A DNA stretch of 64,000 bases from Streptomyces sp. NBC_01142 (GTDB taxonomy: Bacteria > Actinomycetota > Actinomycetes > Streptomycetales > Streptomycetaceae), in assembly GCF_026341125.1 (NCBI RefSeq), contig NZ_JAPEOR010000005.1:1-64000 (forward strand). The letters run 5' to 3'. Of this stretch, positions 15,779-64,000 are shown in pieces. The stretch's first letter is position 1. The number at the start of each line of letters is the position of its first letter. The translations under genes were made by a program, and so were the position numbers. Under the pieces are notes generated by a model. The model searched no databases, was not told the origin of the DNA, and saw nothing but the letters and a program-made list of their open reading frames with translations.

Positions 15779-17572
15779 TCACCGCCGTGCCGGCCACTGT
15801 CGCTCCAGGAAGCCCCGGAGCTCCGGGGTGGTCGGCGGGAGCTCGTCCAGGGCGCGCACCCACTGGTGGCGATCGTGCTCGGACAAGGTGATCGGGCCCG
15901 GCTTCTCCGGCGTGCAGGCGAAGACGAACTGGCGGCTGGTGCGGCCGCGGGCGTTGGTGTAGTCGAAGTGGCCCGCGTAGCGGTCGATGGTGATGGTGAG
16001 GCCGGTCTCCTCCATGATCTCGCGCGGGAGGGCGTCGATGATCGACTCGCCTCTCTCAAGCCTGCCGGCCGGGGTCTCCCAGGTGCCGCCGAGGTAGTCG
16101 TCCGGATTGCGGCGGACGACCAGGAGGCGCTCGTCGTGCACGATCAGGCCGCCGGCGACGAGGGTGTGGATTCCGTCGCGGTGGGCCTGGTCTTCGAGCT
16201 CGGCGGCAAGGCCGCGCAGGGCGGCGTAGCGGGCGAGCGGGCTCATGGGGCGCTCTCCGAGGCATCGTGGGTCGACGTAGGCGAGTGCCCGGCCTTCGGT
16301 GAGGGTCAGGGTGTCGGGGTCGCCGTCCCAGGTGCCGCGGAAGACGTAGGTGAGGTGCCCGTCGTCGGCGGTGTGGGTGAACAGGTGCGAGAGGCTCACT
16401 GCGGCTTCGTCGAGGCCGACCTCTTCGTGGACCTCGCGCACGATGGTGCCGCGCGGGCCGGCATCGGCGGCCTCTGGTTTGCCTCCGTTGGGTGACCACG
16501 TGTCCGGCCAGCAGGTTCCCGGGCTGTCGCCGCGCAGGTGCATCAGGAGATGCCCGCTTCCGTTGCCGATCAGGGCCAAGGTGCCGTATCCGTACGGCGG
16601 TTGGCGTGGCGTGATGAGCTCCAGGACGCGGTCGGTGTCCTGCCGTGTGGTGGGGTGCAGCGGGACGAGGTCGAAGTCGTTGCGCGGGATGAAGGCGAGC
16701 TTGCGGCCTTCGGTGAGAGTCAGCGTGTCGGGGTCGCCGTCCCAGACGCCGTGGAAGACGTGGCGGGGGTAGCCGTCGGTGTGGGTGGAGAACATGTGCG
16801 TCAGCCGGATGTTCTCCAGGCCGGTCTCCTCGCGCAGTTCCCGGCACGCGGTGGCGTGCGGGTCGAGGTCGCCGGGCTCGGCGCCGCCGCTCATCGGCGC
16901 CCAGGTACCCGGCGCCCAGATGCCCGGCTTGTTGTCGCGCAGGTGCATCAGCACCTTGGTCGCGTGCGGGTCCGTGAGTACGACGAGGGCGCAGTACGGG
17001 TCCTCGTCCGCCGGGCGGTCCTGGCGCGGCAGGCCCAGGCTCGACAGAACCCGGGCGCGCAGGACGGGGTCGCCGAGTTCCGAGGGCGAGCGCCATTGTG
17101 CCGCGCCGACCTCTTCGGGCTGCAGGGTCAGGGCGACCGGTCCGCGGGCGCGGAACAGGTAGCGGACGTCGTAGTGCACATGGGCGGGCTCGTTCCTGTC
17201 CGGCCGGGCCTCGATCAGGTGGACGTCGATGTGCACGGGGGTGCCGTCGCCGTACGCGTCCAGCTCGGTGACGCCGGTTTCTTCGGCGATCTCGCGCCGG
17301 ACGGCCTGCCCGAGCGTGCGGTCGGAGTCCTTCGGGTGTCCACCGGGCTGGATCCAGCGGCCGGAGGCGAGGTGGTGGATGAGCAGGACGTCGTCGGCGT
17401 CGTTGATGACGACGCCCGAGGTGGTGACGTGGCCGTCGAACTCCCGCCTGTCGGTCACATTCGCGCCGCCGGCGAGACGGTCCAGGAGGGGCTGGAGCAT
17501 CGGCTGTTCGTCGGGGTGCCCGCGCAGGTAGCCGGTGACGAGGTCCTGGAGGTGCTGGGCGGGGATGGTCAT
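15779..17572 (-). CDS. Four-domain NUDIX hydrolase
   Basis: 597 residues with four NUDIX domains in one chain. Boxes are at about 77-101 (REIAEETG, with Asp in place of the first Glu), 228-252 (RELREETG), 362-387 (REVHEEVG) and 502-525 (canonical GRLERGES...REIMEETG). Domains 2 and 3 share WDGDPDTLTLTEGR almost perfectly at DNA level (around 16290-16330 and 16707-16748), which indicates a recent internal duplication. NUDIX enzymes cleave nucleoside diphosphates linked to X. ATG 17572 has GGAGAG before it. Most NUDIX proteins have one domain, so four is unusual. The substrates are unknown; nucleotide-sugar or damaged-nucleotide hydrolysis would fit the surroundings. Confidence 0.85.
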   Translation of the reverse strand: MTIPAQHLQDLVTGYLRGHPDEQPMLQPLLDRLAGGANVTDRREFDGHVTTSGVVINDADDVLLIHHLASGRWIQPGGHPKDSDRTLGQAVRREIAEETGVTELDAYGDGTPVHIDVHLIEARPDRNEPAHVHYDVRYLFRARGPVALTLQPEEVGAAQWRSPSELGDPVLRARVLSSLGLPRQDRPADEDPYCALVVLTDPHATKVLMHLRDNKPGIWAPGTWAPMSGGAEPGDLDPHATACRELREETGLENIRLTHMFSTHTDGYPRHVFHGVWDGDPDTLTLTEGRKLAFIPRNDFDLVPLHPTTRQDTDRVLELITPRQPPYGYGTLALIGNGSGHLLMHLRGDSPGTCWPDTWSPNGGKPEAADAGPRGTIVREVHEEVGLDEAAVSLSHLFTHTADDGHLTYVFRGTWDGDPDTLTLTEGRALAYVDPRCLGERPMSPLARYAALRGLAAELEDQAHRDGIHTLVAGGLIVHDERLLVVRRNPDDYLGGTWETPAGRLERGESIIDALPREIMEETGLTITIDRYAGHFDYTNARGRTSRQFVFACTPEKPGPITLSEHDRHQWVRALDELPPTTPELRGFLERQWPARR

Positions 17573-23771: not shown

Positions 23772-25089
23772 GCGCCGTGACCGCCACCTCCGTCCGCACC
23801 GCCGCCGACGCCTCCGTCGTCCAGGTCAACGGCGGGCGCCCGCTGTCCGGCCGCATCTCGGTGCAGGGCAGCAAGAACATCGCCCTGCACCTGTACGCGG
23901 CCTCCGTCCTGTCTGATGTCCCGCTCGTCCTGACCGGGGCGCCGGACATCGTCGACACAAGGGTCTGCGCGGAGATCCTGCGCCGTGCTGGAGCCGACGC
24001 GGCCTACCGGGACGGCCGCTTCACGGTGTCCCCGGCCCGCCGCGTCCGCCCGGTCATCGGCCCAGAGCTGGGTCGACAGGTCCGTACGACCGCGGTGCTG
24101 GCTGCAGCGGTGCTGGCGCGCGCCGGCCAGGTCACCTTCCCCTATCCCGGGGGCGACGCGTTCTGTCCACGGCTGATCGACCGGCATCTCGCGGCGATGC
24201 AGGCCGCCGGCGCCGAGGTCATCACGGATGACGACAGCATCCGCGCGGTGTGCGGGCCCCGGGGGGTGAGGGCGTTCACCGTGGACGTGAACACCCCGTA
24301 CGGGCCGAGCCTCGGGGCGACGGTGACCGCGATCATGCTCGCTGCCCGCGCCCGCGGCACCAGCCTGATCACCCACCCGTCGATCGAGCCCGAGGTCACC
24401 GAGACCGTCCGCTTCCTCGCCGACCGGGGCGTCCTCATGCACTTCGACCAGGAGGGCCTGCACGTCAGCGGCAGCGACTGGATCGCCGGCGGCGCCTTCC
24501 CGGTGGCCGGCGACCGCATCGAAGCAGCCACCATGGCCATGGCCACCGCCGCGACCGGCGGCAGCATCCACCTCGACAACATCACCGCAGCCGACTTCCC
24601 CGACGGTCTCGCCCGCCTCCTCGCTCAGACAGGCGTCGTTCTCTCCGAGGAGCTGGACGGCGGCGTGCGCGCCCAGGCTCACGGACCGCTCCAGGCAGTC
24701 GAGGCAGCGACCGGGCCGCATCCGGGTCTGCCGACCGACACCGCACCGCAGCTGGCCGCGCTGCTCACGCAGGCCGACGGCCCTTCGGTGATCGCCGAGC
24801 GCGTCTACCCCCGCCGCGACACCCACACGTCCAGGGCCTGCGCGCCTTCGGCGCCGACATCACCACGACCGGCCCGGTGATCGGCGTTCGCGGGCCCGGA
24901 CGGCTGCACGGCGCCGCGGTGGAGGCCCGAGACATCCGTGCGGTGACCGCGCTGCTGATCGCCGCTCTCGCCGCCGACGGCCCCTCTACGATCCGGGGGA
25001 TGTTCCATCTCCGGCGCGGCTACGACCACCTGCTGCCCAACCTCGCCACGCTGGGAGCCGAGATCACCACCACCCCCGGAGGCCCTTGA
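23768..25089 (+). pseudogene. murA: MurA-like enolpyruvyltransferase, frameshifted near the 3' end
   Basis: From GTG 23768 it reads as an EPT-family enzyme: GSKNIALHLYAAS (Lys36-Asn37, PEP site) and VRTTAV (Arg106). The active-site loop GGDAFCPRLIDRHL has Asp130 where fosfomycin-sensitive MurA has Cys. After RVYPRRDTH (about 24830) the conserved HVQGLRAFGADI continues one frame back, to a stop at 25089. The site CACACGTCC looks like a two-base AC insertion. Unshifted, the frame stops at 24880. Joined length is about 440 residues, normal for MurA (about 420). The cause could be a sequencing error, since its neighbours are intact. NikO/PolA-type enzymes of nucleoside antibiotic pathways belong to the same family, so a non-cell-wall acceptor is possible. 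Confidence 0.75.
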
Positions 25090-32001: not shown

Positions 32002-32568
32002 TCAGGAGGCGTGATCTCCAGGCGCCTGGTTCTCGCCCGCCGGTTGGAGTTGGAAGGGGAGTTCGCATCGCATGGCGGGCCGTTGGGCGACCCATCCGGA
32101 CTCATACGCGGCGGGATCGTGGACGGTCCGTATGTGCGTGAACCCGAGCCGCTCGTAGTAGGCGTGGAGCCGGGTGTTGCTCGTCCAGGCGTCGAGCCGC
32201 AGCCACTTCATTCCGCTGCGGGCGGCCCGGTCACCGCACCAGTCCAGAATCCTGGCCCCGAGTCGGTCTCCGCTGCCGGGCCGCGCCAGGGTCAACTTGT
32301 GGACGTAGAGGGAGGGTTCGCACCGCTCGTCCGCGGACCACAGGACTGGTTCGGCCCTTCGGTCGAGGGTGACTGTGGCGACGGGCGGAGCCGCCTCTGC
32401 CGGGCGAAAGAGATAGACCTCGCCGGCCGTCACGGACTCGGTGAGGAGCTCGGGCGGGTAGGGCGTGGACCACTGGTCGCTGCCCTGGTCACGCAGCCAT
32501 TTCGCCGCGTCCGTACGGAACTTCAGCAGTCGGGGGATGTCGGCCGGCTCGGCCCGGTCAACGATCAC
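32002..32568 (-). CDS. GNAT-family N-acetyltransferase
   Basis: 188 residues from GTG 32568. The GNAT core is seen in VHKLTLARPGSGDRLGARILDWCGDRAARSG (the acetyl-CoA P-loop area, R-x-x-G-x-G/A-like) and LRLDAWTSNTRLHAYYERLGFTHI. The substrate is unknown. The start overlaps the stop of the GntR repressor (GTGA), so it is co-transcribed with and autoregulated by that repressor. Confidence 0.8.
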   Translation of the reverse strand: MIVDRAEPADIPRLLKFRTDAAKWLRDQGSDQWSTPYPPELLTESVTAGEVYLFRPAEAAPPVATVTLDRRAEPVLWSADERCEPSLYVHKLTLARPGSGDRLGARILDWCGDRAARSGMKWLRLDAWTSNTRLHAYYERLGFTHIRTVHDPAAYESGWVAQRPAMRCELPFQLQPAGENQAPGDHAS

Positions 32569-33368
32569 TCGCCGCCTCGCTCGGTGGTCCGGAAACGCTC
32601 GTACACCGTGATGTTGCGGTGCGCCGGCAGCGTGAAGAGGGTGACCTGGACAGGCGTGTCGTTGGCGTCGTAGTTGGTGCTCACGATCTTGATGGCGGGC
32701 ACCGAGTTGCCTTCCCCGAGGCCGAGACGAAGGTTCTCGCCCGGGGTGGTGGTGTGGGGGTGGATCTCGTCGATGGAGCGGACGATCTCGTGTCCCAGCT
32801 CGGCGAGGACCCGGTTCGTGCCGCGTTCGACGTTGTCCTGGAGCACCCAGTCGCTTCCCTCGACGATGCGGAGCGCCACGTACGAGTCGTCGGTGTGCGC
32901 CGCCGTGCCGTCCACCATGTTGGTTCTGCGCCGCACGGCCACGTACTCGCCGTCCCGCAGGTCGAGCCGACTGCGCACCAGCTCCTCCGCCGGCTCGCGC
33001 GTGATCTCGTCCATGCGCGCGTCGCCCTTGCGGTGCGCGGCATCGAGCAGCGACGTGTAGATGTCGACGTTGGGTGCCTTCTGGTGGAACTCCGACTGGG
33101 GGAAGAAGATCAGCGGCTTCCAGTCGTGGACCCAGGCGCCCGAGCCTTTGCGTGTCCGGACAATGCCCTCGGCCTTCAGCTTCTCCAGCACGCGCACCAT
33201 CGACTGCCGGCTCAACCCGTACTCGTCACCGAGGATCTGGGCGGAGGGGAGTTTGTCGGGAGAGCCGTCCGGCTTGCGGAAGTCCCCAGCTTGGATGCGT
33301 TCGCGCAGCTGGGCGACGACGTCGTCGACTGTCGCCTTCTCCGCTTTCTGCGGGCGATTTGTACTCAT
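32565..33368 (-). CDS. GntR/HutC-type repressor (Kor-like)
   Basis: 267 residues. The N-terminal GntR winged HTH (about 12-85; LPSAQILGDEYGLSRQSMVRVLEKLKAEGIVRTRKGSGAWV) is followed by a UTRA ligand domain (about 105-260). Such repressors (KorSA of pSAM2 is an example) control Streptomyces conjugation genes. A palindrome repeated three times in 33383-33562 lies directly upstream, covering its own promoter and the divergent one. It therefore likely represses itself, the GNAT gene and the transfer operon. Confidence 0.85.
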   Translation of the reverse strand: MSTNRPQKAEKATVDDVVAQLRERIQAGDFRKPDGSPDKLPSAQILGDEYGLSRQSMVRVLEKLKAEGIVRTRKGSGAWVHDWKPLIFFPQSEFHQKAPNVDIYTSLLDAAHRKGDARMDEITREPAEELVRSRLDLRDGEYVAVRRRTNMVDGTAAHTDDSYVALRIVEGSDWVLQDNVERGTNRVLAELGHEIVRSIDEIHPHTTTPGENLRLGLGEGNSVPAIKIVSTNYDANDTPVQVTLFTLPAHRNITVYERFRTTERGGE

Positions 33369-34774: not shown

Positions 34775-34953
34775 CGACGGCGCCTCCGGCCTCCCCCGCT
34801 CCGGCCGCCACCGCCAAAGCCCGGCGGCAAGGCCGGGGGCGGCCGGACCGCCGGCCAGGGCCCCTCAGCAACTCGCGGGGGACGGCAGAACCCCGTTGTC
34901 CCCCTTGCGACTCCGCCCCCTCGGAGCCGCCTCGCACAGGAGAAGTACGGTGA
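34771..34953 (+). CDS. Small Pro/Arg-rich ORF
   Basis: 60 residues from GTG 34771, overlapping the previous stop (GTGA) and the DUF2637 start (GTGA). It is Pro- and Arg-rich with CPPC near the end and no domain. The overlaps are the only support; the next ribosome site, AGGAGAAG (34938-34945), lies inside it. Confidence 0.35.
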
Positions 34954-36626
34954 CCACCACCTCCAGCACTCCCCCTACGACATCCCCGGCGGCCTCGGCC
35001 GACGAGCCGGACCGGCAGCCGCTCAACAAGGCGCAGCGCGTGATCGTCGGTGTCGTGGTCGGCGGCGCGGTGGTGATCGCCGGAATCGGCTTCGCCGGCT
35101 CGTACGCCGCGGTCAGAGACCTTGCGATCCGCAAGGGCTTCGGCACGTTCGCCCATGTGTTCCCGCTCGGGGTCGACGCGGGGATCCTCGTCCTGCTCGC
35201 GCTGGACCTGCTGCTGACCTGGCTCCGGATGCCGTTCCCCATGCTTCGGCAGACCGCGTGGCTGCTGACCAGCGCGACGATTGCGTTCAACGGCGCCGCG
35301 GCGTGGCCCGACCCGCTCGGGGTCGGCATGCACGCGGTGATCCCGATCCTGTTCGTCGTGACGGTCGAGGCCGCCCGGCACGCCATCGGCCGGATCGCCG
35401 ACATCACCGCGGACAAGCACATGGAGGGCGTCCGGCTGATCCGGTGGCTGCTGTCGCCGCTCCCCACGTTCAAGTTGTGGCGGCGGATGAAGCTGTGGGA
35501 GCTGCGCTCGTATGACCGGGTCCTCGAACTCGAGCAGGAGCGCCTCGTCTACCAGGCCCGACTGCGCACCCGGTTCGGTCGCGCCTGGCGCCGCAAGGCC
35601 CCGGTCGAGGCCCGGCTACCGCTGAAGCTCACCCGCTACGGCGTCCCGCTCAACTCCGGCCGCGCCCTCGCCCCGGCCCCTCCTGCGGCGCCGGCGCCGG
35701 AGGGCAACGCGCTGGAGGCCCACGTCGCCGACGCCCTCGCGCTCACCTCGACCGCGGATGGAGCGCCGGGCCTTCCCGCCGGTGAAGGCATGAACGTTCC
35801 TTCGTACCCCGTGAACGCCGACGTCGACGCCGGCGTGAACCCTCGCGTCGGGCAAGCGCCGGCGCCGCGGCCGGCAGCCGTGAACGCGGCGGCCGGGCGT
35901 GAACCGGGCACCGTGAAACCGGACGCCGGGCAGCGCGTGAATCCGCAGGTTCACGCACCGGCCGGCCGCCCCGTGAACGGTTCACGCGGGCACGGTTCAC
36001 GGCCAGGCGTGAACGGGTCGGCGAGCGTCGCCGATTCACGCATGAAGCCGTTCACACCCTCCGTGAACGACGCCAGCGTGAACCGCGTGAACTCCGTAAA
36101 TCCGCTGTTCACAGGCACCGTGAACGGATTCACGCTGATCGTGAAGCCCCGTGAATTCACGCGTGAAGCCGAGACCGTGAATCGGCCGGAGTGGAGCGTG
36201 AAGCAGCCGGCGCAGCTGCGCGTGAACCACCCCGCCGACCGTGAATCAGGCGGCGTGAACGACGGCGGCGGCACCGTGAACTCGGCGCCGGACAAGGCCG
36301 TGAACGAGCACCCCGACGATCGTGAAGAGGAGCGCGTGAACGGCGGCGACGACGGCGTGAACGACCGCGCCGTGAATTCACGCCGCACCCATCGCGCACA
36401 CGCCGCGAAGGCGCCGGCACCGAGCTCGGTTCACGCCACCGTCGGCGCCCCGAGCCCGGAGGAGGCGGAGCGGGCCAAGGCGGCCGCCGACTGGTTCGCC
36501 GCGAAGAAGGCGAACCCGAGCCTCACGCAGAAGGACTTCGTGAAAGAACTCGGCCGCTCGCCGGGCTGGATGACCAAGGCCCTCAAGGAGGCGGCACGCA
36601 AGGCCGCGGCCGCGGCCGATGGCTGA
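34950..36626 (+). CDS. DUF2637 membrane protein with repeat-bearing C-terminal region
   Basis: 558 residues from GTG 34950. The N-terminal DUF2637 domain (about 25-180) has four predicted membrane helices ([70 protein letters not shown]) and then a basic [20 protein letters not shown] segment. Residues 278-495 are low in complexity and dominated by VN, RE and FT pairs, because the DNA carries a dense CGTGAA array. The last 60 residues form a small helical, HTH-like domain ([25 protein letters not shown]). DUF2637 genes are typical of Streptomyces conjugative elements and likely act in plasmid spread. Confidence 0.8.
35782..36434. repeat. Dense CGTGAA/TTCACG array inside the DUF2637 gene
   Basis: GTGAA occurs 27 times and its complement TTCAC 10 times in 653 bp; about one or two would be expected by chance. 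Most copies read CGTGAAC. They fall in different reading frames (GTG AAC as Val-Asn, CGT GAA as Arg-Glu, TTC AC as Phe-Thr, GTT CAC as Val-His, GGT TCA CG as Gly-Ser) and in both orientations, including palindromes at 35972-35986, 36151-36160 and 36372-36381. This indicates selection on the DNA rather than the protein, as for an iteron, clt or partition site. Confidence 0.85.
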
Positions 36627-36822
36627 GCCGACCCGCGAAGACCTTTCCAGCGCGGCCCGTCTGGGGTCGGGCGTCCCGCCCGGCCCCAGGCCTCACGCCA
36701 GCTCCACAGCAGGGCCGCTGACCTGCCACGACGCCGACCACAACGAGAAGTTCATACGCATGCTGATCCACTTCGCCCTTCAGGGCGAGCGGATCACCGG
36801 AGCCTCCGAGGAGGGAGGGAAT

Positions 36823-37914
36823 ATGACCACCGCAGACGAGAAGACCGACCCGTTCCACGTGCCACTGCCGGCCGAGGTGCCCGTACCCGCGCCGCACCCG
36901 GAGGCAGCGGGCCGTGACGGTGGCCAGGTGACGGCCACGACGTCGGTCCCAGCCCCTGCAGACCCGCATGTAGATGCCCCTGTAGATGCTGTAGATGCGC
37001 AGGTCAGCGCCCCAGAAGAGGGTGTGCCCGCTCCCCGGGGGAGCGGGGCGGAGCCTGCCCTTCCGCCCATGCCGGAATCGCCGCCCGCGACGCCGGAGGA
37101 CGACCCGGATTGGTGGCGCGTCTCCCGGGACGAGCCGAAGGCCGCGCCTCCTGCGAAGGGGTCGCCGCGCGACACCATGTCCGGCTGGTGGGACCGCCTC
37201 TACAAGGACCAGGACGCAGACCTCGACACCTACACCGGGCACGTGCTGACGGTGCCGGCCGACGGCGGACCGGTCCTCATCGAGGTCCAGAAGAGCCCCG
37301 AGCCCGAGGCCCCGGAGCCGGATGAGGCCGCGGGCGAGGAGCCCTCCGCCCGCCCGCAGGTCCTCGATGTCCGCAAGCCGCAGCCGACCCTCCAGATCCG
37401 TACGCAGCCGGTGAAGCGGTGGCGCCCGACCAGGTTCTGGCGCGTCATCACCTTCAACGGGACCGCGGCAGCGGTCGGCAGCGCCATCGGTCTGAACGCC
37501 TACCTGTCCCAGTTCCCGCCGGCCGCCGTCACCGCTGCCGGCGGGCTGCTCGGGGCGGGCATGGCGCTCGGCGGGGGGTTCACGGCGTGGAAAGTCGCGG
37601 GCAGTGAAATGCTCGCGCCGTTCGTGCCGTTCGGCGCCCTGGGCCGCCTCGGCGCGGTGTTCGTCTCCGCCGAAGTCGGGCGTCGCCTCGGCCAGGCGCT
37701 CCTGCCGTACACCTCCGACACGATCGCCCGCTACGTCGGCCTGAGCCAGGCCGACACCTCCCTGCTCGTCGTCGGCCTCACCATGTGCGGCGCCTCGGGC
37801 TGGCTGGTGTGGCGCACTCGCCACGGCGGCCTGCTCAAGCGCTGGCTGGCGCGCATCCCGCTGGCCACCTCCCTGCTCGTCTGCGCGCTGTACTCCAACG
37901 GCCCTGTCATCTGA
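36823..37914 (+). CDS. Spd-like membrane protein
   Basis: 363 residues from ATG 36823, chosen for GAGGGAGGG just upstream (ATG 36619 is an in-frame alternative). An acidic, Pro-rich cytosolic N-terminus (1-200) is followed by about four membrane helices (FNGTAAAVGSAIGLNAYL, VTAAGGLLGAGMALGGGFTAW, LVVGLTMCGASGWLVW, LATSLLVCALYSNG). Plasmid-spread proteins of Streptomyces have this composition. The GTAGATG repeats at 36970 lie in its coding sequence. The 196 bases upstream of the start hold no other gene. Confidence 0.65.
   Translation: MTTADEKTDPFHVPLPAEVPVPAPHPEAAGRDGGQVTATTSVPAPADPHVDAPVDAVDAQVSAPEEGVPAPRGSGAEPALPPMPESPPATPEDDPDWWRVSRDEPKAAPPAKGSPRDTMSGWWDRLYKDQDADLDTYTGHVLTVPADGGPVLIEVQKSPEPEAPEPDEAAGEEPSARPQVLDVRKPQPTLQIRTQPVKRWRPTRFWRVITFNGTAAAVGSAIGLNAYLSQFPPAAVTAAGGLLGAGMALGGGFTAWKVAGSEMLAPFVPFGALGRLGAVFVSAEVGRRLGQALLPYTSDTIARYVGLSQADTSLLVVGLTMCGASGWLVWRTRHGGLLKRWLARIPLATSLLVCALYSNGPVI
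36970..36997 (+). repeat. Three GTAGATG direct repeats
   Basis: GTAGATG at 36970, 36982 and 36991 (spacings 12 and 9) within the spd-like gene. The same heptamer recurs as CATCTAC at 39417-39461. A shared protein-binding word is likely. Confidence 0.6.
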
Positions 37915-37927
37915 AAGGCACACACCC

Positions 37928-38401
37928 GTGATCCCCATGAACACCGTGCTCGCCGCGCCCGCTTCCGGCGCCAGCTTCACCCAGGGCCTGGGAGCGGTCG
38001 GTCTCTCGTCCCTCGCGGCCGCCGGTTTCATCGTCCTGATCATCGCCATCCGCAACAAGTCGAAGCTCACCCGGAAGTACTTCGACGACCGCCGCTACCT
38101 CGCCGGACTCGCTGCCGTGATCGGCGTCCTGTTCATGATCGCTGGGGGGACCTGGAGGAATCTGGCCGAGGGAGTCCACGGCACAGCGGCCTCGACCCTC
38201 ACCGATCCGAATCTCATCGCCGGCGCTTCACCTGCCGGTCTCGCCTTGGTCCTCGGCGTCCTGGCCTTCCTGCCCGAATGGCAGCGGCGTCTTCCCCCTG
38301 CGCTCTTCGGCCTGAGCTTCGGCGTCGCGTGCGGCGTCGCGGGTGCGTTCTGGGGGATCCTCTTCAAGGTGACCAGCGCGTTCCTGGAGAAGCTCGCATG
38401 A
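37928..38401 (+). CDS. Small Spd-like membrane protein
   Basis: 157 residues from GTG 37928 (ATG 37937 is possible). Four hydrophobic segments are visible: SSLAAAGFIVLIIAIRN, LAAVIGVLFMIAGGTW, AGLALVLGVLAFL and FGVACGVAGAFWGILF. No enzyme motif. Its stop overlaps the next ATG (ATGA). A role in intramycelial plasmid spread is inferred from context. Confidence 0.65.
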   Translation: MIPMNTVLAAPASGASFTQGLGAVGLSSLAAAGFIVLIIAIRNKSKLTRKYFDDRRYLAGLAAVIGVLFMIAGGTWRNLAEGVHGTAASTLTDPNLIAGASPAGLALVLGVLAFLPEWQRRLPPALFGLSFGVACGVAGAFWGILFKVTSAFLEKLA

Positions 38402-39405
38402 GAGCGCTGCTCAAGGAGATCAGCATCCCGTTCCAGGGCGCCAGGCAGACGCCGCGGCTGCTCCTCCTCCCACTGTTGACCGGGTCGCGCCTCATCGCGT
38501 CATTCCTGCTGCGCAGGGTGGCCCGGGTCGTCAAGCTCGGCTGGACGGCGGCCATGAACCTTGATGCTCCGCCGGCGAAGGCCGCACCGGAGCAGGGCGG
38601 CGAGCCCGCTGACGATGGCTCCGCAAACAAGTCGGGGCCGAGCACCACCAAGGTCTCCAAGAAGACGGCTCCGGCCACCTCCGATGACGCGATCGAGCGG
38701 GTCGGCCTGGGCTGCCTGATCATCCTGTTCGCCGCCGTCGTCATCGCGGGGGTCATCTGGCTGTTCATGTGGCTCGCCTGGCCGTACATCGCTCCGTTCG
38801 CGCCGGTCGGCGGTGCCGTCCTCGGGGTGGTGTGGGTGATCGCCGCGTGGATGATCGCTCCCCCGCTGCAGGAGACCGCCACCCAAAACGATCATGAAAA
38901 TTCTGCGGGGGAGCAGGATCAGGAATCCGACCAGGACCGGTTCGCCCGTGGGCTCGCGCGGTTCATCGTGGCCGCTGTCCGGGATGCTGCGCCGGAGCAC
39001 ATGGGCGTGCACATCGCCGAGCTCCTCGAGCGGCTTCAGAAGGAGGCGCAGGGCTTCGGCGGCTGGGATCAGCCCCGGCTGCGGGAGTGGTGCACTGCTG
39101 TCGGGATCCCCGTCAGCAGGAACGTTCGGGCGAAGGGGAAGGGGCCCACCTGGGGGGTCCGCGCCGACGAGCTGCAGGAGGCGTTCGGCACCTCTCTGGA
39201 CGAGGCCCTGGAGGCCCTCGCCCGACCCGCCCTCCCGGCCCCGTCGGAGGGGCCCCCGACCACCCCCGGCCAGGCCGAGGAAGCGGGCCCCGTCGCACCC
39301 CTCACCGCACCCCCCGCTGAGGCCCCCGTGCCGGCCGGGCACAGCACCCCCGTTCACCCCCACCTCCAGGCTGTTCCCGACCCCTCCCCTGGCGCCGTCG
39401 CATGA
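38398..39405 (+). CDS. Spd-like membrane protein with C-terminal helical domain
   Basis: 335 residues from ATG 38398, overlapping the previous stop. An amphipathic N-terminus is followed by a Lys/Ser-rich linker and two or three membrane helices (GLGCLIILFAAVVIAGVIWLF and GGAVLGVVWVIAAWMIA). A soluble domain (about 180-280, FARGLARFIVAAVRDAAPEHMGVHIAELLERLQ ... WCTAVGIPVSRNVRAKG) and a Pro/Ala-rich tail complete it. The soluble part resembles uncharacterised Streptomyces plasmid proteins. Its stop overlaps an ATGA at the GTAGATG palindrome. Confidence 0.65.
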   Translation: MRALLKEISIPFQGARQTPRLLLLPLLTGSRLIASFLLRRVARVVKLGWTAAMNLDAPPAKAAPEQGGEPADDGSANKSGPSTTKVSKKTAPATSDDAIERVGLGCLIILFAAVVIAGVIWLFMWLAWPYIAPFAPVGGAVLGVVWVIAAWMIAPPLQETATQNDHENSAGEQDQESDQDRFARGLARFIVAAVRDAAPEHMGVHIAELLERLQKEAQGFGGWDQPRLREWCTAVGIPVSRNVRAKGKGPTWGVRADELQEAFGTSLDEALEALARPALPAPSEGPPTTPGQAEEAGPVAPLTAPPAEAPVPAGHSTPVHPHLQAVPDPSPGAVA

Positions 39406-51796: not shown

Positions 51797-52582
51797 ATGC
51801 CGACCTTCCTGGCCGCCGATCCCAACACCCCGCCTCCGAACGCCCGTCAGCGCACCTGGCTGCTCGCGGCCCTCCGCGCCGCCGACGGCCTGCTGCCGGT
51901 GGGTGTTCCCACCCGCTCGCTGAACGTCCTGCGCGAGCGCGGGTGGATCACGACCGCCCCGGCCGGCGACGACGACCCGATGCTCATCCGGCACAAGATC
52001 ACTCCCGCTGGCCGTTTCGCCCTGCTCAGCGTCGCCAAGGCCGACGCTCTGCTCAGCACCCTCGTCTCCGTCGAACCCGGCCGCATCGAAGCCCCGGTTC
52101 AGGAACGCATCCTCGACTCGCTCGTCCGCGAGGGCCTGGTCACCCGCCTCACTCGGCGCGGCCAGCAGGCCGAGGACGAGGAGCAGCATCCGTACATCAC
52201 CAACCTCGGCCGCCGCCTGGTCTCTCTGCCCGAGGCCGATGACACCCCTGCGGGCGACTACCTTCTCGCCGCCCTCGCCACGAGCGGCCTGGAGGCGCGT
52301 GTCGAGACCGACAGCAACGGCGACAGCCGCATCGTCTACCGGCGCGGGGACGTCGAGGCGCTGTTCTACCGCGAGGTCTGGAACCCCGGCTTCTACACCT
52401 ACAGCGCCCGGCACCCGGCCTGGATGCACACCAAGCCGTGGACCGCGCTGGTCACGCACGCCGAGGACACCGTCGAGGAGCACATGCCCAGCGGTCTCGG
52501 CGTCCAGGAGGAGAGCGCCCGTATGGCGGCCTCCTTCGCCGCGTGGCTCACCCACCGGGACGACCGCGCCTTCACCCTCTGA
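51797..52582 (+). CDS. Hypothetical plasmid protein with winged-helix-like repeats
   Basis: 261 residues from ATG 51797. Two related segments (LLAALRAADGLLPVGVPTRSLNVLRERGWITTAPAG and VQERILDSLVREGLVTRLTRRGQ) look like tandem wHTH units. The C-terminal half (YREVWNPGFYTYSARHPAWMHTKPW...) is unknown. It may bind DNA. Coupled closely to the neighbours in the same direction. Confidence 0.5.
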   Translation: MPTFLAADPNTPPPNARQRTWLLAALRAADGLLPVGVPTRSLNVLRERGWITTAPAGDDDPMLIRHKITPAGRFALLSVAKADALLSTLVSVEPGRIEAPVQERILDSLVREGLVTRLTRRGQQAEDEEQHPYITNLGRRLVSLPEADDTPAGDYLLAALATSGLEARVETDSNGDSRIVYRRGDVEALFYREVWNPGFYTYSARHPAWMHTKPWTALVTHAEDTVEEHMPSGLGVQEESARMAASFAAWLTHRDDRAFTL

Positions 52583-52617
52583 CGCGCTGCTCACCGACCA
52601 CCCAAGGAACTGCCGCC

Positions 52618-53889
52618 GTGCACCTCAGCACCCGCCTGCACCTGCTCGACCTCATCCGGATCTCGGCCAGCGCCGAGAGCGCCTGCCGGGCCGCCGACCG
52701 GGCCGCTCGCAAGGCCTCGATCCGCCGCAAGGAGGCCGCCGCCACGCGCCGCCAGCGCCGTCTCGCGCTGCGCAGTGCCCCCAGCGGCGGCGCGGTGGAT
52801 GCGCTCGCCGACGCCGAGCGCGTCTACCGCGAGCGCGCGGCCGACGTCGATGCCGCAGGTGCCCGGTGGCGCCGCGCCTTCACCGCGAGCGCGCGGGCAG
52901 ATGCCCGGCTCGGGGGCGAGCTCGCCTCCGCCCGGGTGCTGACCGGATCGGACCGGCCCCGCGCCAAGGGCGGCCGCACCAAGGCGGAGACCGCGCTGCT
53001 GGCAGAGCTCGCCGCGATGCCCGCGACGCTGATCGAGGCCGCGCACGCCATCCTCGTGCAGTCCAGCGCGGGCAAGGACTCGGTCGTGGCGCTCGATCGC
53101 GTGGTGCGGTGGGCGAAGGCCGCCGGCTGCCTCGACAAGGTCGTCGTGGTCCACGCCGATATCGGCGAGGAAGCGGAGTGGCCCGGGGTCCGTGATCTTG
53201 CCCAGCAGCAGGCCGAGCGGTACGGGCTGCGCTTCGTGGTGGTCAAGGCGTCCGTCGGGTTCCTCGGCATGGTCGAGAAGCGCGGTCTGTGGCCCGACGC
53301 CCAGAACCGGCTGTGCACCTCCACGCTGAAGCGCGACGAGGCGGCCAAGCTGTTCACGCAGATCGTCGACGAGCTCGGCCTCGACGACCAGGCGCTGATC
53401 GTCAACTGCCTGGGCATCCGCGCCGCCGAGTCGCCCTCGCGCCGCAAGAAGCACGAGCTCGCCATCGACCACCGCGCCAGCAACGGACGCCGCCTCGTGC
53501 TGACGTGGCACCCGGTGTTCCACCTCTCCGAGACGGATATCTGGCAGGAGATCGCCGACCAGACGCTCGACTACCACCCGGTGTACGACACGCTCATCCC
53601 CCGTCTGAGCTGCATCTTCTGCATTCTGGCGTCCTTCGAGGTGCTGGTGCGGGCAGTCCGGCTGTGCTGGGTGCTCGGCCTTCCGACCCCGAAGACGTAT
53701 GTCGACCTGGAGCAGCGGATCGGGCACCGCTTCAAGAACCAGTTCAGCCTGGCCCAGGTCGTCGAGGAGGCCTCCCGCCGGGAGGCCGCAGAGGGCCCGC
53801 TCATCTGGCGCCGTGGCGACGCAATCCGCCACCACCTCGGCGAGGACGCCGCCGCCGCCTACCTCCACCGCCTGGCACTCGCCGCCTGA
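52618..53889 (+). CDS. PAPS-reductase-like PP-loop protein with coiled-coil N-terminus
   Basis: 423 residues from GTG 52618. Residues 1-130 form a charged coiled-coil. The PP-loop SAGKDS is at 150-155. NRLCTSTLKRD and CIFC later supply cysteines as in PAPS reductases and DndC-like proteins, which adenylate and reduce or transfer sulfur. It is larger than CysH (about 250) because of the coiled coil. No dndA, B, D or E genes are present. A second PP-loop enzyme lies at 54970. Plasmid- or phage-borne DNA or nucleotide sulfur chemistry is a guess. Confidence 0.75.
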   Translation: MHLSTRLHLLDLIRISASAESACRAADRAARKASIRRKEAAATRRQRRLALRSAPSGGAVDALADAERVYRERAADVDAAGARWRRAFTASARADARLGGELASARVLTGSDRPRAKGGRTKAETALLAELAAMPATLIEAAHAILVQSSAGKDSVVALDRVVRWAKAAGCLDKVVVVHADIGEEAEWPGVRDLAQQQAERYGLRFVVVKASVGFLGMVEKRGLWPDAQNRLCTSTLKRDEAAKLFTQIVDELGLDDQALIVNCLGIRAAESPSRRKKHELAIDHRASNGRRLVLTWHPVFHLSETDIWQEIADQTLDYHPVYDTLIPRLSCIFCILASFEVLVRAVRLCWVLGLPTPKTYVDLEQRIGHRFKNQFSLAQVVEEASRREAAEGPLIWRRGDAIRHHLGEDAAAAYLHRLALAA

Positions 53890-63446: not shown

Positions 63447-64000
63447 CTACTTCTGGCCCGGCAGGGCGACGCCCGTGCTGGCGTCGGTGGGCAGCACCTG
63501 GTTGGGGCAGCCGGCCAGGACGCGGGTCATGGCGGTCTTCTCCGGCGGTGTGACCCACAGGTGGTACTTGGCCTTGACCGCGATCTGCCGTGCGACGTAC
63601 GAGCAGCGGAAGGTCTTGTTGGGCGGAAGCCAGGTGGCCGCATCCGCGTCGGACTTCGCGGAGTTCGCCGGGCCATCGGCGGAAATCAAATTCAAGGGGT
63701 CGTTGCCTACTGCACGCCTTTGTTCCTGGGTGAGTTGGGCGGCGCCGGTGCGCCAGCTCGCGCCGAGCGCGACGGCGTGGTCGATCTGCACCTTGGCGCT
63801 CTGCGGGCCGCGGACGAAGTTGATGCGCTTGCCGGTGTAGGGGTCCTCGAGAGTGCCGGTTGCGATCACGCAGCGGGAGGTCCCCTTGAACGTGATCTTG
63901 TGCAGGTCGCGGCGAAGAACATCGTTTCGGGTATCGCACGAATTGCCCGATCCGGGCGCGGTGGTGGTGTCCGACCAGGCGGGCCCGAACTTGGCTTCGC
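63447..64000 (-). CDS. Secreted HNH nuclease, GmrSD/DUF1524-like (partial)
   Basis: The 5' end lies outside the window. At least 184 residues are visible: SCDTRNDVLRRDLHKITFKGTSRC, then DPYTGKRINFVRG, VQIDHAVALGASWRTGA (the HxxP/HH-type DH motif), NDPLNLISADGPANSAKSDADAATWLPP and CSYVARQIAVKAKYHLWV. This is the usual layout of actinobacterial exported HNH nucleases. Two Cys pairs may form disulfides, which fits secretion. The usual signal peptide would be upstream of the window edge. Confidence 0.85.
   Translation of the reverse strand, partial: EAKFGPAWSDTTTAPGSGNSCDTRNDVLRRDLHKITFKGTSRCVIATGTLEDPYTGKRINFVRGPQSAKVQIDHAVALGASWRTGAAQLTQEQRRAVGNDPLNLISADGPANSAKSDADAATWLPPNKTFRCSYVARQIAVKAKYHLWVTPPEKTAMTRVLAGCPNQVLPTDASTGVALPGQK

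Follow-up and report, generated by a model that had tools for sequence, protein, structure and literature searches.

The locus described here raises the question of why the gene for a predicted membrane protein should hold, within its own reading frame and on both strands, a dense array of the six-base word CGTGAA, and of which protein would read that word. The window that we analyzed is the whole stretch of 64,000 nucleotides from the beginning of contig C5 (162,192 bp) of Streptomyces sp. NBC_01142, and the gene in question, at 34950 to 36626 on the forward strand, encodes 558 amino acids, counted from a GTG at 34950, with a DUF2637 domain (PF10935, E=3.7e-44; 150.9 bits, the curated cut-off being 22.8). 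Its start codon is not certain, as the database version of the protein (P0001, 528 amino acids) begins 30 residues later. A scan of the DUF2637 proteins against NCBIfam assigned no family, and DUF2637 is annotated as a domain of unknown function.

Results

A dense hexamer array lies within the DUF2637 coding sequence

The initial annotation had reported 27 copies of GTGAA and 10 of TTCAC between 35782 and 36434, and a direct count of their starts returned exactly these numbers. Its headline figure of about 37 CGTGAA/TTCACG copies was slightly high, though the dense array itself is real: the interval holds 34 whole hexamers, 26 CGTGAA and 8 TTCACG, the last TTCACG ending at 36435. The gene as a whole contains 35, of which 33 fall entirely within 35782 to 36434, and from counts, recoding, and alignment the array is placed on both strands of the linker-coding region at 35810 to 36435. 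In 2000 sequences simulated from the first-order base statistics of the array itself, the mean number of copies was 0.76 and the maximum 5, compared with the 33 seen, and chance or composition, so modeled, is excluded as the source of the array. The copies had been described as lying in all frames and on both strands, which is true of every usable frame, since within the gene CGTGAA occupies two frames (22 and 5 copies) and TTCACG three (2, 4, and 2), each of these five strand-frames being free of an in-frame TGA, and the sixth would place TGA in frame. Spacing within the array is irregular, from 6 to 53 bp, with G or C preceding the hexamer in 32 of 35 copies and C or T following it in 29 of 35. 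Only two extra copies lie between 32000 and 35800, and C5 overall, window included, contains 106. When the whole genome was scanned for triple GTGAA, 28 matches were forward and 32 reverse; on visual inspection, the dense clusters among them are two, on C5 and on contig C4, and the remainder resemble short tandem repeats or scattered triples.

The constraint acts on the DNA

That the constraint acts on the DNA, as initially claimed, is borne out by the use of five strand-frames and by recoding. When the same protein was recoded 5000 times with the codon usage of nearby genes, the hexamer appeared 6.1 times on average and never more than 14 times, compared with the 33 observed. In 5000 permutations of the synonymous codons of the region itself, the average was 10.6 and the highest count 19. 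Several rare codons are over-used in the array region, with TCA encoding 5 of 15 serines (0.3 expected), CGT 5 of 20 arginines (1.1 expected), GAA 6 of 11 glutamates (2.4 expected), and GTT 3 of 28 valines (1.0 expected), and GGT is not over-used there, at 3 of 23 (2.2 expected).

Homologous genes allow the same point to be seen in evolution. Relatives of the window gene include one more in the same genome, on contig C4, and four on linear Streptomyces plasmids of 312 to 560 kb, and these six genes were aligned by codon, a column being counted as motif if at least one of the two sequences compared has the motif there. Among the four closest genes, the hexamer columns are 97 to 98% identical, compared with 66 to 82% in other columns. 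In pairs with the two distant plasmid genes, which retain 45 and 33 copies, the motif columns are 68 to 82% identical and the others 50 to 58%, and 16 to 27 sites lie in the same place, though each gene has 33 to 45 copies. The motif is thus kept by homologs at positions where equivalent codons could have replaced it, and, with the DNA-level constraint, this behavior fits the earlier suggestion of a recognition element nested in coding sequence, the site itself being putative. As a separate observation, the DUF2637 genes of loci L126 and L127 contain in-frame duplicated segments within the array region, and arrays may therefore grow by local duplication.

A membrane domain is joined by a disordered linker to a predicted helix-turn-helix tail

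The DUF2637 domain, encoded at 35052 to 35513 on the forward strand, was located by the Pfam match and has three strongly hydrophobic segments, and its predicted structure is helical, though of low confidence (mean pLDDT 57). It is followed by a predicted linker, with pLDDT below 50 over residues 215 to 468 of the 528-residue version, and it is this disordered linker that the array DNA encodes. The C terminus, encoded at 36456 to 36620 on the forward strand (residues 473–527 of P0001), is modeled by AlphaFold2 as a three-helix domain in a helix-turn-helix (HTH)-like arrangement, with block pLDDT values of 86 to 92 over residues 471 to 520, and we predict that this tail is an HTH and presume that it is the array reader.

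The window tail had no match in Pfam, and the tail of L124 gave weak HTH matches. A database search with the tail returned 18 proteins at E≤0.01, including the window and C4 proteins, of which 17 carry PF10935 and one, of 346 residues, is without a precomputed domain. In profile comparisons with the PDB, the best match of the tail was the HTH of P1 ParB, which is weak (E=0.046), and the best match for the CGGTCA-class tail described below had E=0.13. A fold search with the full model returned nothing at E≤0.001, and the repeat look, which covered mainly the low-confidence membrane part and carries no information on the tail, brought up no recognizable tail relative. In gapless comparison of the tail with the host ParB, the best window was the ParB HTH for all three members tried, a result that is not significant alone, as 137, 52, and 662 of 1000 shuffles scored as high.

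Tail class and array word correspond across DUF2637 loci

DUF2637 genes differ in the class of their HTH, and four classes each have a dense word of their own, CGTGAA, CGGTCA, GTTGGA, or TGCGCA, at densities reached in no locus of another class and in none of 108 chromosomal controls. For this comparison the four tail profiles were searched alone in 392 genomes of the genus, and five words were counted up to 1500 bp from the tail, with L001 to L009 and L025 to L043 excluded. The resulting class table, in which each distinct matched sequence has a single row, comprises 84 rows, with thresholds chosen after seeing the data and class counts that are not independent because loci within a class are related. 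The controls were 108 chromosomal-type DUF2637 loci with the same membrane domain and a different tail, ending in HIA, the group as a whole, rather than each locus, being called chromosomal because many of its members lie on large contigs, and their maxima were 3 for CGTGAA, 3 for CGGTCA, 7 for CGGCCA, 2 for GTTGGA, and 3 for TGCGCA. Many DUF2637 loci are of this core type, with a tail ending in HIA and no class array.

In the window class, CGTGAA reaches at least eight copies per 700 bp in 7 of 8 loci, compared with 0 of 76 in the other classes and 0 of 108 controls, the exception being L245 (tail E=9e-10), which is without a CGTGAA array. The second class reaches at least eight CGGTCA per 700 bp in 18 of 22 loci (0/62 in the others and 0/108 in controls). 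GTTGGA attains at least five copies per 700 bp in 8 of 15 loci of the third class, or 8 of 10 at E≤1e-20, compared with 0/69 and 0/108, and in this class L257 has 10 copies of a related word, GTGGAA. For TGCGCA the same density is found in 17 of 39 loci of the fourth class, or 16 of 38 if L264, apparently the same place as L088, is left out, and in 0/45 others and 0/108 controls. About half of the members of the GTTGGA and TGCGCA classes are thus without the word. In the first wide scan, 14 of 47 non-core DUF2637 loci, including the window, reached a −log10 p of 14 for some word, as did 1 of 108 core-type loci (L199, AAGGAC, 14.8), and for both reasons the lesser arrays are not clean of background.

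Three comparisons bear on whether the tail or a neighboring gene is the reader. First, in the second class, all 15 loci with a Lys before TGQR have CGGTCA (12–23 copies), and an Arg at this position goes with CGGCCA at 15 to 19 copies in 3 of 4, these four being the second-class loci below the CGGTCA threshold; the fourth, L187, has 7 CGGCCA, which equals the control maximum and is not above background. By analogy with LacI-type HTHs, this Lys/Arg position is presumably base-contacting. The variants L226 (Glu), L227 (Ser), and L229 (Lys in a changed context) have 12, 23, and 8 CGGTCA, L227 being also rich in GGTGAC and AGTCAC, and weak matches to the CGGTCA-class tail (E 1e-5 to 1e-3, L230 to L240) have at most 4 per 700 bp. 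Second, the CGGTCA word is alike beside parAB (L203, L204, L205, and L208) and beside GntR (L207 and L129), where parAB is absent from the stretch shown; the L129 tail lies in a different frame from the annotated DUF2637 gene. Third, L244 is a membrane protein with no DUF2637 match and a window-class tail (E=2e-16), and its linker region carries CGTGAA-type hexamers on both strands, at 8 per 700 bp. Because of these three tests, which are correlations among related sequences, the tail rather than a neighbor is indicated as the reader, and we consider it very probable that the tail reads the array.

The array need not lie within the gene

Counted over the gene and 1500 bp on each side, nearly all sites of the window class lie in the gene, with 36 of 38 inside it in L124 and 45 of 52 in L126. 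The 1500 bp downstream of the gene hold most copies in the other three classes (CGGTCA, GTTGGA, and TGCGCA), as in L203 of the CGGTCA class, with 26 sites downstream compared with 6 in the gene, and the downstream sites of that class are partly intergenic and partly inside the next gene. In L128 yet another word, CCGAC(C/T), forms an array inside coding sequence, with all three frames used. A coding location is thus optional, and it is the DNA that is kept. Adjoining the CGGTCA array of the DUF2637 gene on contig C3, near 1641930 to 1642090 (L043), is a second repeat, GGCTTGCCC(A); similar words occur in L177, and these may be iterons or another site.

Plasmid neighborhood

In the window, a GntR/UTRA regulator gene (32565–33368, reverse strand; PF07702 and PF00392) and a GNAT acetyltransferase gene (32002–32568, reverse strand; PF00583) precede the DUF2637 gene. 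Three genes without Pfam matches follow it on the forward strand, the first (36619–37914) with one hydrophobic segment and the others encoding membrane proteins with four (37928–38401) and with two (38428–39405, start not certain). The order with the acetyltransferase is the same in L124 and L125, and the plasmids from which L124 to L127 come likewise have a GntR gene upstream of DUF2637. To cover the classes, 22 plasmid regions (H1–H6, H61, H63, H65, H66, H70, H83, H86, H91, H96, H98, H112, H116, H124, H136, H138, and H139) were picked from 330 matched records and from further searches of similar size. An annotated ParA gene is nearby in 13 of the 22, eight of these having the order parA-parB-DUF2637, a GntR gene is upstream in 7, and 2 have neither. 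The window locus is of the GntR type, with the gene order of L124 and, in part, of L125. Contigs C5 and C4 are taken as plasmids because of their synteny with plasmid regions. The window gene has neither parA nor parB next to it, and on C5 the AAA_31 match closest to it is at 90102 to 90557. Several of the plasmid DUF2637 genes have annotated conjugal-transfer genes downstream, and C5 has a likely conjugation module at about 70.5 to 83.3 kb (L025), with TcpC, AAA_10, and a weak FtsK match (E=0.0033, below the cut-off), its translocase-like gene being about 45 kb from the array.

C5 also carries a second DUF2637 gene, beside a ParA gene. The approximately 2.2 kb between this gene and a parA/parB-like pair (C5:86433-88593, L026) is full of GGGTACCCgGGGTACCC units and at this locus probably serves as the parS array. 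A rule by which the DUF2637 tail reads whatever array lies near its gene does not hold for the L013 type: L200, L201, and L202, with a similar tail, have the upstream words GTGGGTACCCAC-like, GTCCCAC/CCACCAG, and AAGACCC. Because the upstream words of these relatives differ and their tails are similar, the GGGTACCC array beside parA on C5 is more likely the site of the ParB-like protein.

Elsewhere in the window, a phosphoadenosine phosphosulfate reductase-like gene (52438–53889) also resembles BrxP of a defence library (E=5.2e-11), a short open frame (63447–63869) matches the GmrSD restriction endonuclease C-terminal domain, and the protein encoded at 15779 to 17572 matches the NUDIX domain model in four stretches. 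On the reverse strand at 24464 to 24552, ARAGORN calls a tRNA without an assigned type, which overlaps a predicted gene and is probably spurious.

Discussion

A candidate membrane tether with its sites in its own gene

We propose that the gene carries, in this array, the cluster of sites that its own protein product recognizes. This protein would sit in the membrane by its DUF2637 domain, its linker of about 250 residues would tolerate almost any sequence, so that the DNA encoding the linker could hold the sites, and its C-terminal HTH would read CGTGAA followed preferentially by C or T. Many such proteins, anchored in the membrane and occupying about 34 sites, would then tie the plasmid locus to the membrane, as a static, centromere-like tether that would serve the segregation of a low-copy plasmid or its spread along the hypha and would act beside a separate ParAB locus. 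From the array, its DNA-level conservation, the domain layout, and the match of HTH class to word, all of which are read in the sequences, we infer binding, tethering, and a role in maintenance, the last two resting on gene order and analogy. On balance we think it fairly probable that the protein is a membrane-anchored plasmid tether with its site array nested in its own gene.

The main alternative, which we regard as unlikely, is that the array is a parS-like centromere for a ParB-type protein encoded elsewhere, on the plasmid or the chromosome, and that DUF2637 is a mere neighbor. Canonical parS is an inverted repeat with the core TTCACGTGAA, plasmid ParBs can use other sites, and CGTGAA is the first part of the canonical half-site. 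The weak resemblance of the tail to the P1 ParB HTH, the many plasmid DUF2637 genes near parA/parB, and the L013-type upstream arrays, which differ while the DUF2637 tail stays similar, would all suit this explanation. The full TTCACGTGAA core, however, occurs 0 times on C5 and C4, CGGTCA arrays accompany the matching tail in stretches without parAB (L207 and L129), and in L244, which has the tail but no DUF2637 match, the word is present too.

The initial annotation had turned to the TraB recognition sites of Streptomyces conjugative plasmids, in which short repeated words (TRS, in clt) are read by a plasmid-encoded FtsK-like translocase. The array resembles TRS in consisting of short repeated words, and a loading or recognition site for a conjugative translocase of the TraB/FtsK or TcpA type would be in keeping with the conjugation module of C5, weak as its FtsK match is, and with the conjugal-transfer genes downstream of several plasmid DUF2637 genes. 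But the TRS word that the annotation named, GACCCGGA, occurs 0 times in the array (it is found 18 times on C5 and 35 times on C4 overall), the translocase-like gene is some distance off, and the word covaries with the DUF2637 tail, including the Lys/Arg difference, so the TraB idea is not upheld, and a translocase site seems improbable.

Comparably improbable is a cluster of operators, bound by the tail or by the divergent GntR regulator for transcription control: a GntR gene is upstream in 7 of the 22 plasmid regions, the window type among them, but the sites of the window class fill the second half of a coding region, which is not a promoter, and equivalent arrays stand in non-GntR neighborhoods (L203–L205 and L208). 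Short repeated words in clusters are typical of iterons, and the array was also initially compared with these; an iteron-like replication origin or copy-control element is nonetheless very improbable, since ten scanned proteins, some of them not neighbors, included no replication domain, the spacing is irregular, and the word tracks the tail of a membrane protein, the HTH of the same gene, even where the membrane domain is different. That the words are a by-product of a Val-Asn protein repeat or of neutral repeat expansion deserves almost no weight, because, although 21 of 33 copies are in the Val-Asn/Lys frame and L126 and L127 have their duplications, synonymous recoding and frame use exclude a protein-repeat artefact, the motif columns hold while the remainder drifts, and related classes place most copies downstream of the gene.

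Relation to known maintenance systems

The closest comparators to the proposed tether are other Streptomyces plasmid systems. SpdA2 of pIJ101 binds a short site, sps, inside its own coding region, and loss of SpdA2 or of sps lowers segregational stability and leaves transfer unaffected (PMC4170104). The likeness is that a plasmid protein has its site within its own gene, the window having 34 hexamers in the interval for a presumed reader. In that system, sps is a 12-bp palindrome present in two to three copies in most plasmids, with one site conserved across plasmids, and SpdA2 is a small protein with a zinc-finger-like N terminus, whereas in the window the sites are six bases long and number about 34, the words vary by class, and the protein has a membrane domain. 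The sps palindrome CGTCACGTGACG occurs 0 times in the array, 0 times on C5, and once on C4. In the ParA-ParT-parS partition system of the Streptomyces plasmid SCP2, parS lies in the coding sequence of its HTH protein (PMC12260392). There the site is one 18-bp inverted repeat, and the protein diffuses along DNA and works with ParA; the accessible portion of the account makes no mention of a membrane, unlike what is predicted for the DUF2637 protein (PMC12260392). The linear plasmid SCP1 has dual ParABS systems with strict site specificity, and Spd1 of SLP2 is described there as redundant with ParABS for movement within the mycelium (PMC13245405). These Streptomyces plasmids resemble the present case in being large and linear and in having more than one maintenance system, but the SCP1 systems use ParB CTPases with three parS sites each, and DUF proteins go unmentioned in the portion of the source available (PMC13245405). 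A literature search on DUF2637, membrane-anchored plasmid partition, and Spd proteins, with most subscription papers outside its reach, returned no description of such a system. Given the neighborhood of these genes and the SpdA2/sps and ParT/parS precedents, a membrane tether for maintenance or spread is the most likely role.

Implications for the DUF2637 family

The DUF2637 membrane-domain profile was matched in 147 of 150 sampled genomes of the genus, weak matches included, and tblastn found relatives of the window protein in 330 of 72,556 plasmid records. Judging from these sequences, there is about an even chance that the DUF2637 proteins of plasmid type make up a family not described so far, one of centromere-binding proteins that are sequence-specific and anchored in the membrane, acting as a third component beside ParA and ParB or, as in the window, as a stand-alone tether. 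In such a family, exchangeable HTH tails and site arrays would diverge together as a specificity code, as with Lys and Arg for CGGTCA and CGGCCA, and the window class would have its whole array folded into the reading frame of the linker. The window gene is a clear case of one DNA stretch that is coding sequence and dense site array simultaneously, a double use that is possible because the linker is disordered. If our proposal is true, the plasmid DUF2637 proteins would gain a function, a naturally occurring collection of HTH-site pairs, one residue-base correlation among them, would become available, and a membrane tether would join the parts list of plasmid inheritance in hyphal bacteria.
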